From assembly GCA_025526995.1 (NCBI GenBank), contig JAHLKG010000019.1, forward strand, positions 186,001 to 250,000: a stretch of DNA of 64,000 nucleotides, given 5' to 3'. The translations under genes were made by a program, and so were the position numbers. Below, piece after piece: positions 13,064 through 61,234 of the stretch. The first letter of the stretch is position 1. Every line of letters begins with the position of its first letter. The notes beneath the pieces were generated by a model. The model saw nothing but the letters and a program-made list of their open reading frames with translations, made no database searches and was not told the origin of the DNA. This stretch comes from Powellomyces hirtus. Lineage: Eukaryota; Chytridiomycota; Chytridiomycetes; Spizellomycetales; Powellomycetaceae.

Positions 13064-13122
13064 CTCTCCAGTGGGGGGCTGGCCAGCCCCAAATTGGGGC
13101 GGCCAGCCCCCTCACTGGAGAG
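13064..13122. repeat. GC-rich 59-nt inverted repeat
   Basis: The segment begins CTCTCCAGTGGGGGG and ends CCCCCTCACTGGAGAG, with GGCTGGCCAGCCCC facing GGGGCGGCCAGCCCC around an AAATT centre. It would form a long, nearly perfect hairpin. It lies in a GC-rich insert (about 12880-13165) between C1 protease and pre-integrase. Confidence 0.85.
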
Positions 13123-58214: not shown

Positions 58215-58926
58215 TTACAGCTTCGCAGCTTGTACGGGAGGGAGCTCTTTACCAAGGAAATATGCCAGATGATCCATGCGGTCGCTGCCAAAGAACATCT
58301 GCTCCTGGCCGTCGCCACGGGTCACAAACATTGTCGGGGTTCCAAACATACCCTTCTTCACGGCTTCCTCACATTGAGTGACCAAACCCTTCTTCACAGC
58401 GTCGTCGTTCATGCTGTTCAGAAGGCGTTCCTTGTCACATCCGGCGGGAAGAGCAGCAGCCAGCACCTCGAGCGAATTCATGTCCTGTCCTTGCTCCCAG
58501 TACGCCTTGTAGAGGTTCGCGGTAGTTTCCTCCAACGTTTTCGCGTCGGCATGAGTCTTGACGCCAAAGAGCATCCTTTGGGCTTTGAGCGTGTTGGCTG
58601 GAAAGACTTTCGGAAGGTTCATCGTAAATTTGTGCATCGCAGTCACGCGGGCGAGGTCTTGACCCATATGCCGCAGCTTCTGCTTGTTAAAGGCAGGGGG
58701 CGGCGTATTGACAGTGGGGTTCTGTGTTAAAATCGTCAGTACATAGCCAGCTTCGAGTTGCATGAAACAAACAGGTTACCGAGAGCACGAAGCCCAAGAA
58801 GACGGGCTCGAGCACAAGCTCAAAGCCCCATTGCGAGCGCAATCGCCTCAACAGAGTAAAGGCGACGAACGAATAGGGCGACACCACATCATAGAAAAAA
58901 CGAATTACGGGCTGCTTTGGCGACAT
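58215..58926 (-). CDS. DsbA-fold GST-kappa / HCCA isomerase-like protein
   Basis: Exons 58780-58926 and 58215-58721 give 217 residues. The thioredoxin-like start reads VIRFFYDVVSPYSFVAF, with the Ser that binds glutathione in the kappa class. PPPAFNKQKLRHMGQDLAR follows in the helical insert, and GMFGTPTMFVTRGDGQEQMFFGSDR (split here: GMFGTPTMFV, then MFFGSDRMDH) holds the cis-Pro loop. The family conjugates or isomerises with glutathione in mitochondria or peroxisomes. The C-terminal AKL at the stop is a peroxisomal PTS1-like tripeptide. Its promoter overlaps the Fanzor relic. Confidence 0.9.
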
Positions 58927-58989
58927 TGCGGAAAGGTAGTTCGTTGAACTCTGCGACGCTTCGCGCTGTAACACGTGCGTTATATTTGG

Positions 58990-59889
58990 AATATAATCCA
59001 GACCCCGTGGACACGAATCCGTAGTAGGGGTTTTACATCGGCCCATGCGTTCGTTACGCACGGACCATTTGAGGGGGATGTACAGGAGGTGGGATAAATG
59101 CGTCATGGCTACATGCTACGACTGCGCCTGCCATATTCCATTCCCAGCGTGCTGCCAAGCTTGTGTGTTGTTGTGCACGCAGACTTGTTTCTCGCCCTGT
59201 CAAAGACTGCAGATATGGAATGAGCAGGTTGAGGTACTCTCAATCCTTTGCGGCTCAGATACCACGGCCGAGACAGCGAGGAATCCTACGCTTCGCAGCC
59301 ACATCTCAGAGCCGCGGCAAACGACGTTGCCAGCGCTCTGCAACAACTGGAAAACGCACGTGTTCAAGCGAGGCTCAGACCAGAGATCAAAAAACTTTTA
59401 GCCGACATCCAGCATCTCAACGCGGGGATTGGCAGGCGTGTCAAAGCTCTGCACAGGTTGGCCATAAAATTCGTCACGGCATTCTACGTGATTCAGCACC
59501 CCAAGTTGGACAACCGAATCCATTGGAATAGGCAGACCGGGCCACAATCCTATGTCAAGCACACGTTTTTGCGACTTTCACACTCTACGTATCTTGCAGA
59601 GCTTCGCAGGCGATTGAAGGAGCAAGGCCGCGACGTGCTCATCGTCAACGAGAGCTTTACGACACAGGCATGCTGCGTCTGTGGGTCTCTTTACCGTGTG
59701 GGCTGCAAAAAGATTTATTATTGCCATGTGTGCAACACTTTCCGACATCGGGACGGAAACGCCGCGTGCTCTATCGGCATCTCCAACTGCACGCGTATTC
59801 TCATCTGGGTGGGATTCAGTGCTACTGTTCCCACGGCACTCGCGGCAACCATGGATACTACAATCTTGCCTCTGTCACTTGATTGGTGA
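58990..59889 (+). pseudogene. Fanzor (eukaryotic TnpB-like RNA-guided nuclease) relic
   Basis: The open part (59248-59889) ends with the diagnostic TnpB/Fanzor block. RuvC-II Glu lies in VNESFTTQACCVCGSL, followed by a zinc ribbon of two C-x2-C pairs (the second in YYCHVCNTF), then RuvC-III HRDGNAA. Upstream, RRVKALHRLAIKFVTAFYVI and HPKLDNRIHWN match the helix and strand that follow RuvC-I in Fanzors. A weak RuvC-I candidate (YNPDPVDTNP) is at 58992-59021, in another frame and followed by stops. The N-terminal half is missing, and the family NAARN reads NAACS. It is inactive as it stands unless frames are misread. Confidence 0.8.
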
Positions 59890-59939
59890 ATTATATGACG
59901 AGGCGGGCAAAAGACGTGTACCAAGAGTGTTTATGCGCG

Positions 59940-59955
59940 GTGTGAGATCTCACAC
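59940..59955. repeat. 16-bp perfect palindrome downstream of Fanzor relic
   Basis: GTGTGAGATCTCACAC is a perfect dyad, followed by TCTCACACC, which can also pair with the left arm (GGTGTGAG). It lies 51 bp after the Fanzor stop, where element ends or the guide-RNA scaffold would be expected. Confidence 0.6.
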
Positions 59956-60108
59956 TCTCACACCAGTTTTGAGTTAGGAACGTCGGTGTCCTTCCGACTT
60001 TGTCACTCGTTTGATTATATGATATCAAAATAAGAGCTACAAAGCTAACCACTATGTAGCACTACATACGGAACATCCCAAATCATATGTACATCTATCC
60101 TCTACGGT

Positions 60109-61234
60109 TCAGTAATTTGGGGGTCTTTCTGCTGTGGTAGAGGATGCTTGAGGGTCAAAGGATGCTTGAGGTGGCGGAGCGCTGCTCGGCTCCGAGAAGG
60201 CCGGTGGCAGCGGCATAGGAAACACGGGCGCAGTGCCCGCGCGAGGGGGAGCAGCCGAGGACGACGAGTCCGTAGGAGAATACAACGGTAATGGCTCTTC
60301 GTGAGGGAGCGTATCACCGGTCACTCGCGATCGGAGTTGCATGAACATGCTGGAGAACTCAAAGCCTCCGCTGTTAAGGCAAAGAGTTGGACCCGTCAGC
60401 GCGACTTCTGGAGATCGACGTAGGTAAGAATTTAGTTCATACCCTTCCTTGAATGAGAACTTGACTTGTCCTTGCAGTGTCAGTCCTCCGTTCGGGACCG
60501 GTTGCACGGTGGCTAAAAGTCACCATGAATGAATATTGTCAGATCCTATTCATATCCCACTCCTCCGACTTGCAATCGCAGACTTGTCACATACCTTGAT
60601 AGCAGTTTGCTTGGAACCATGGTTGCTGAAGCGTTCCACCCCTTTCAGAAAGGAAAATGTCAGCAGAAAGTTTGAGAGTGTCAATCGTTTATGTCAAGCG
60701 CTCACTTGAGGTTTTCTAGTGGAACCTATCAGCGGGAGCAGAATAAGTGTCTACGAGTATGAATAAGGTGCAAACGGAACATGTCATTCTTACGTTGAGG
60801 TTTCTGAAATAGTCCATCGGCGGGTGCGAAACGTAGATGACTCGTCGGTTCGCTATGATTACACAGTTGCCTGTCAACAATCTTTCGAATGCCATCAGTC
60901 TCGAATGAACTTACTCAGAAACAAATGCCCTTTTTGAGAGTAGAAGTTGTTGCCTTGTCCGGGGTATCCACTGCCAATTGAGAGTTGCATGAGTATTCCT
61001 CTCTTCCTATTTGACTAGTCCTCAAGCAACCCCAAGCAAAAGGACTCCACCCTGTTACATACTTTCCGCTCTCATATTCCATCAAAACCCCGCCTGTGCC
61101 CAAGTCTGGTAAGTTGAGAGTCCTGGTCAAAAGCGGTTTGTCACCATCCTTTTACCTTGATTGAGGAAGAGTTTTTCGCCGACGATCAGCACCGGGGTGC
61201 CGTCTGGATTGAGGATGGCTCCGTTCAAAGACAT
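60109..61234 (-). CDS. WBP2-like GRAM-domain protein with PPxY
   Basis: Eight exons (61156-61234, 61063-61105, 60915-60970, 60794-60852, 60706-60725, 60595-60641, 60443-60512, 60109-60370) give 211 residues. The GRAM/PH-like domain runs through KGHLFLTNRRVIYVSH, PLENLKGGTLQQPWFQANC and GQVKFSFKEGGGFEFSSM. The C-terminal half is Pro/Ser-rich and ends with PPNY, a WW-domain ligand. WBP2 proteins couple WW-domain partners (such as Nedd4-like ligases) to membranes or transcription. The last intron (60371-60442, 72 nt) is stop-free and a multiple of three. Exon 5 is only 20 nt. Confidence 0.85.

Follow-up and report, generated by a model that had tools for sequence, protein, structure and literature searches.

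A 5′-truncated Fanzor2 gene fragment, its upstream repeat and a recurring 3′ block in Powellomyces hirtus

The window considered here, a 64-kb stretch of the Powellomyces hirtus genome analysed as a whole (C19:186001-250000; genome of 29.26 Mb in 60 contigs), contains a locus with letters of a TnpB/Fanzor nuclease, and it raises the question of whether this is a working RNA-guided nuclease gene, the remains of one, or a zinc-ribbon gene of another kind, and where an element carrying it would have ended. Our preferred explanation, which we hold at a probability of about 0.87, is that the locus is a 5′-truncated, non-functional Fanzor2 gene fragment from an ancestral RNA-guided nuclease element that was rearranged, with some 70 bp of 3′ DNA kept. 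The protein of that element would have comprised a WED/REC half, a split RuvC domain with a repositioned glutamate, and a zinc ribbon. In the Fanzor family a guide RNA is read from the right end of the element, and the ancestral element would have carried such an RNA as well. In the order of events that we infer, a rearrangement would have deleted the 5′ part of the element as far as about RuvC-I, and what was left would have come to lie against a copy of an unrelated repeat, leader-like in character, before a DsbA-like gene. The C-terminal half would have stayed, with about 70 bp of 3′ DNA that ends at 59957. The features are collected in Table 1.

Table 1. Features of the Fanzor locus and of related sites; positions are those of the window unless another locus or contig is named
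Feature	Position	Strand	Basis or remark
DsbA-like gene (PF01323), two exon-like pieces	58218..58926	-	Pfam; likely start Met at 58926
Leader-like repeat, present in three copies, directly adjoining the Fanzor fragment and not itself Fanzor	58965..59237	-	Genome matches, three-copy alignment
Other copies of the repeat	L009 1336-1760; L010 1335-1700		
5′-truncated Fanzor2 C-terminal fragment	59238..59889	+	Profile, PDB sequence, fold, frame analysis
Suggested place of RuvC-I DPG, reading YHG in a hand-made ungapped alignment with P0003	59260..59268	+	Inferred
Canonical TnpB RuvC-II glutamate position (Ecan), Pro in the relic	59500..59502	+	Alignment
Repositioned RuvC-II glutamate (Ealt) in NESFTT	59650..59652	+	Regular expression; invariant in 26/26 homologues
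C4 zinc ribbon CxxC...CxxC (CCVC, CHVC)	59671..59733	+	Cys codons start at 59671, 59680, 59722 and 59731
RuvC-III aspartate of RDGNAA	59752..59754	+	Regular expression; homologue columns
3′ block beginning in the last ORF codons; candidate for the right end and guide-RNA scaffold	59873..59957	+	Second copy
Perfect 16-bp dyad	59940..59955	.	The L011 copy retains the 6-bp stem, with one base fewer in the loop
Second copy of the 3′ block	L011 1418-1535 = C19:70234-70351		Same contig as the window

The open frame and its catalytic residues

An open frame of 218 codons spans 59233-59889 on the forward strand, with its stop at 59887-59889. Its product corresponds to the C-terminal half of a TnpB/Fanzor protein, with helices, the NESFTT glutamate, a zinc ribbon, and the RuvC-III RD. 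The sequence-only reading had named NESFTT, two CxxC pairs and RDGNAA, preceded by a helical region, and all of them lie in this single frame. The Pfam profile of the Cas12f1-like TNB zinc ribbon (PF07282) scored 41.9 bits against a cut-off of 26.3 (E 1.1e-10), and 44.5 bits at the same locus in the genome search. The NCBIfam profile NF040570 (guided_TnpB) aligned at positions 251-386 of its 389, that is, by its C-terminal third only (E 2.4e-10), and its 40.3 bits fell under the full-length cut-off of 100, which is expected for a fragment and is a miss nonetheless. Among 34 homologues the best BLASTP match was P0003 (35% identity over 99 residues), and 26 of the 34 scored against the relic in phmmer at E up to 10. 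Residues 205-418 of P0001, searched alone, recovered no homologue at 1e-3 among 2354 candidates, a result that we count against the explanation as a Fanzor2 fragment.

Structures pointed in the same direction as the profiles. Of 12 PDB entries matched by sequence at E up to 1, the top one was 9b0l, in which the match covers residues 378-508 of the 520 of the mimivirus TnpB-like protein L79 (E 1.2e-8). A model of the relic predicted with 26 homologues (mean pLDDT 74.1) gave 225 fold matches, 10 of them with E up to 0.001, headed again by 9b0l, there titled Fanzor2 (E 1.9e-6, TM 0.53 by query). Prokaryotic TnpB and Cas12f structures were also present among the sequence and fold matches. Together, the sequence and model comparisons support a real, decayed TnpB/Fanzor copy, specifically one of Fanzor2 type, in keeping with the decayed Fanzor that had been proposed from the letters. 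The possibility that the frame instead encodes an unrelated zinc-ribbon protein, which had a weak FYVE_2 match to commend it (E 0.017, 15.8 bits against a cut-off of 27.2), is refuted by the profile results, since PF07282, the PDB matches, the fold, and the regular expression all indicate TnpB/Fanzor.

According to Yoon et al. (PMC10711439), Fanzors are defined by DPG at RuvC-I together with a glutamate that has shifted to lie six residues ahead of the zinc finger (Ealt); a glutamate at Ealt and none at the canonical place (Ecan) is described there also for IS607 TnpBs, mainly cyanobacterial ones. The relic reads E-SFTTQA-CCVC-x13-CHVC-x6-D, and the published spacing, E-x6-CxxC-x(12,18)-CxxC-x(4,8)-D, was matched once in the six frames of the window, at the relic, and in 0 of 100 shuffled windows. 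At the canonical glutamate position, a phage TnpB has E, L79 has G, the other Fanzor copy of this genome (on C2, described below) has S, and the relic has Pro. We counted never-varying columns on the homologues alone, because counting kept residues in an alignment that contains the relic would be circular. From RuvC-I on there were 15 such columns (25 or 26 homologues), of which the relic keeps 10, all from Ealt onward (the Ealt E, a T, four C, a K, an R, a D, and an A), including both the R and the D of RuvC-III that are invariant in 26/26 homologues. At the other five it has a gap in three cases (the D and the G of RuvC-I, and a Ser) and a substitution in two (Lys, Arg). By this alignment, the catalytic end is retained and the front lost or altered. 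MAFFT gaps the relic at the RuvC-I DPG, and the family profile leaves 59260-59268 unaligned; the YHG placed there by hand lies 127 residues before Ealt, and the DPG-to-Ealt distance is printed in PMC10711439 as x(120160), taken here as 120-160. That YHG marks the former place of the DPG is suggestive only, and under either alignment the catalytic Asp of RuvC-I is missing.

The dyad and the recurring 3′ block

A palindrome had been noted at the 3′ side of the relic and interpreted as lying where a transposon end or guide-RNA scaffold would be. The perfect dyad GTGTGAGATCTCACAC is indeed present, and by itself we rejected it as evidence, the frequency of such palindromes being near chance: the window has two perfect 16-bp palindromes against 0 to 3 per shuffled window (6 in total in 10), and a search for the dyad with up to 3 mismatches gave 1 match with 0.34 expected. 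The other perfect palindrome of the window is GGGGCTGGCCAGCCCC, at 13075-13090.

The placement of the dyad gains some support from a recurring block that ends at 59957. The 22-mer AGAGTGTTTATGCGCGGTGTGA occurs at two places in the genome, the window and C19:70319-70340 in L011, with none added at up to 3 mismatches, and the two blocks have in common a 36-bp core at 97%, for which no third copy was found in 29 Mb. Comparisons with shuffles made in two-base blocks delimited the similarity. Left of the core, the collinearity score was reached by 0/2000 shuffles both for 59822-59921 and for 59887-59921. Right of 59957 the similarity is gone (573/2000 shuffles reach the score). Within the ORF it is marginal (55/2000 for 59790-59889; 723/2000 for 59800-59873) and, because of this, the start of the block was set at 59873; one local alignment of the window and L011 began at 59839. 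No match to Fanzor coding sequence was reported at L011 in the searches with the relic, NF040570, PF07282, and P0003. Folding beat shuffles in only one of four stretches, window 59840-59957 (z -2.54), the others being window 59899-59960 (z -0.81) and two stretches of L011 (z 0.09 and -0.27), and we count both results against the reading as a scaffold. Known RNA families had no match in the window stretch, and in L008-L011 the single match at E up to 1 was a sub-threshold microRNA in L009 (28.9 against 49 bits). From these comparisons of letters, 59957 may be taken as the end of the element, and 59873-59957 is probably its right end, which would make it a candidate for the former guide-RNA scaffold.

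The main rival to a right end is that the block belongs to the host, as a promoter block that the window has in common with the promoter region of an aldehyde-dehydrogenase gene at L011, that now lies beside the Fanzor fragment, and that may drive leftward transcription toward the DsbA-like gene. We consider this a possible, tentative explanation. At L011 the block lies upstream of the leftward gene (PF00171, 104.3 bits in Pfam), at about 257 bp from its likely start codon, TATA-like letters are aligned in the two copies (TTATAAAG / TTATATGA), a leftward gene lies on the same side in the window too, with the same orientation of block to neighbouring gene in both, and L011 itself has no reported Fanzor coding match. 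However, the shared stretch opens where the Fanzor frame closes and runs out a little beyond the dyad, which is what a right end would produce; 36 bp at 97% in two promoters, with no further copy in the genome, is unusual for regulatory sites; and an orientation agreement of 2/2 is weak. A compromise between the two, in which a diverged Fanzor2 right end outlived its nuclease and was reused as a host promoter or control block before the DsbA-like and aldehyde-dehydrogenase genes, seems unlikely to us. Such a block would close in a GTGTGA-N3/4-TCACAC hairpin, with the Fanzor half-gene still attached at the DsbA-like copy.

The 5′ boundary and the upstream repeat

The Fanzor part of the locus begins near 59238 and not at 58990, where the sequence-only reading had placed the start of the feature, because 58965-59237 is a separate repeat. 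The first and sole in-frame Met is codon 207 of 218, and the genome searches with NF040570 and full-length P0003 had no match to the N-terminal WED/REC half at this locus. A family profile built from 26 of the 34 homologues found nothing above the inclusion threshold in the other five frames of 58601-60200 (best -3.2 bits; three frames had negative scores and two were unlisted), and in the relic's own frame the match did not extend upstream, all alignments starting after RuvC-I. The weak RuvC-I candidate that had been suggested further upstream was accordingly rejected, since that stretch belongs to a repeat whose other copies, at C19:514 kb and C2:440 kb, are without Fanzor.

Specifically, the match of 58965-59220 is to C19:514044-514298 (89%) and that of 59027-59228 to C2:440550-440748 (73%), and the alignment of all three copies stretches the unit to 59237. 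Neither of the two other copies had a Fanzor match in the genome searches with the relic, NF040570, PF07282, and P0003. In the window copy the TATA/exon-1 part is missing, its place being taken by the Fanzor fragment. This copy lies 5′ of the DsbA-like gene; the gene that follows the L010 copy scores over cut-off for DUF1687 and under it for ArsC. The repeat may be a leader common to different genes, or it may be a small RNA gene. By eye, a TATA box, an exon-like stretch, and a conserved CTGCAG resembling a splice acceptor can be made out in the two other copies, and the repeat hairpin CCGTGCGT...ACGCATGG has a loop whose length differs among copies. Directly after the L009 copy we saw no DsbA-like or DUF1687/ArsC-like gene. 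The opposite-strand DsbA-like gene sets a limit on how far the Fanzor could have reached on its 5′ side and, with the DNA immediately 5′ being the repeat and then this gene, we judged an intact gene split by introns to be unlikely.

An expressed, domesticated half-protein, in which the zinc ribbon and partial RuvC are under selection and spliced to an upstream exon, would account for several properties of the 218-codon frame. Shuffled versions of the fragment had 8.7 stops on average and were stop-free in 3 of 20,000 cases, so the openness of the relic exceeds chance; GC by codon position (0.54/0.44/0.61) is coding-like; and the ten homologue-invariant columns from Ealt on are kept. From the coding-like GC and the fully open frame, continued use could be possible. 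Against domestication stand the lack of an in-frame ATG before codon 207, the repeat and opposite-strand gene immediately 5′, and the change of two residues that never vary in 26 homologues, and divergence while functional followed by late truncation accounts for the same facts. We therefore regard domestication as improbable, and the simplest reading is that the relic was still a working protein while it diverged and that its truncation came late. Without a start codon, the N-terminal half, the RuvC-I Asp, and any recombinase found in the genome, the relic should neither cut DNA nor move; RNA-guided cleavage by a fragment with this sequence is not expected.

Relatives and other copies in the genome

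We placed the relic in a tree of 32 rows, comprising 29 of the 34 homologues, the relic, the C2 copy, and one phage TnpB as root. It fell in a 21-row clade (95/91), outside both the C2-copy group, a 16-row clade, and the mamavirus group. Its branch is very long (2.84 changes per column) and, because of this, its place inside Fanzor2 is unsure. A profile of 10 members of the C2 group gave the relic 37.6 bits, against 61.9 bits for the broad family profile. Among viral contigs, 0 of 6 stretches matched by the relic alone were confirmed as relatives, while the family alignment recovered at least 27 loci among 600 stretches, at 22-42% identity over their best segments among the matches listed. Judged through the Fanzor alone, a giant-virus provirus had no support. 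On the profile, structure, viral-contig, and genome comparisons made, it is very improbable that the relic is a bacterial IS200/IS605 or IS607 TnpB, or a contaminant: TnpB profiles do match, and prokaryotic TnpB/Cas12f structures are among the matches, yet the relic has its glutamate at Ealt and none at Ecan, the best matches are a giant-virus Fanzor2 and P0003 of the C2-copy Fanzor2 group, the relatives just described lie on viral contigs, and two more sites in this genome carry copies of the flanking repeat.

The mimivirus Fanzor2 L79 and the mamavirus putative transposases P0019 and P0022 share the relic's helices, Ealt, C4 ribbon, and RD. L79 is full length (520 aa in 9b0l), whereas the relic, 29% identical to a 131-residue piece of it, is without the N-terminal half and DPG. 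The C2-copy Fanzor2 group, to which P0003 belongs and outside of which the relic is placed, has the same Ealt arrangement and a similar C-terminal order. In contrast, the Fanzor1 of Spizellomyces punctatus (SPu-1 / SpuFz1) belongs to a different clade and was absent from the relic's 12 PDB matches at E up to 1. This species has an active fungal Fanzor; as given in PMC10432273, 42 of its loci are full (19) or partial, and 134 have element ends and no ORF. Partial Fanzor genes and end-only copies are thus already reported from a fungus. Fanzor2 is known in fungi (PMC3627910, PMC10432273), its proteins are stated to reside in IS607-like elements (PMC3627910), and some Fanzor2s are described as having moved onto other eukaryotic transposons (PMC10711439). 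Titles and the starts of abstracts yielded no literature on Fanzor with Chytridiomycota or on Fanzor pseudogenes. Elements of the IS607 / ISvMimi type combine Fanzor2 with a serine recombinase, unlike the genome of the relic, in which PF00239 had no match in six frames with introns ignored (the control was positive in 10/14).

Intact relatives had been thought probable in the same genome. Searches with the relic, NF040570, PF07282, and full-length P0003, which ignore introns, could miss an intron-split copy and make copy counts lower bounds, found one other Fanzor in the 29.26 Mb, at C2:~1489920-1488301 (-), and no intact relative of the relic. The search with the relic's translation that had been advised thus gave a second copy and not an intact one. 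The C2 copy (L005, L024) is near full-length and retains DPG, Ealt, C4, and RD, and it has several frame changes and stops, so no intact Fanzor copy was found. It belongs to a different subfamily and is 31% identical to the relic over 72 residues, and its read-through protein is 63% identical to P0002, which it adjoins in the tree. The P0003 search gave seven matches: the relic, three pieces of this copy, and three weak ones (E 0.066 to 0.44), of which C2:1489741-1489845 falls within the N-terminal frame of the C2 copy itself and the remaining two are regarded as chance. As a source of the shared ends the C2 copy was rejected, its 3′ similarity being insignificant both to the window (score reached by 482/2000 shuffles) and to L011 (1916/2000).

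With the relic, the genome has a second Fanzor2 lineage, a very diverged one; its only other Fanzor found is also dead, and with both dead the genome looks like one that lost its RNA-guided transposon nucleases. Should the 3′ block be a true right end, it would illustrate what remains after the death of an element and would provide a sequence to seek in related genomes; otherwise, the relic is an ordinary mobile-element fossil. Named relatives of the C2 copy, left out of the tree, come from two Chytridiomycota, Borealophlyctis nickersoniae (P0004, P0009) and Phlyctochytrium arcticum (P0018). Finally, short fragments resembling the upstream flank of the C2 copy lie at C11:352570-352757, C4:1295369-1295455, and C2:171987-172051.
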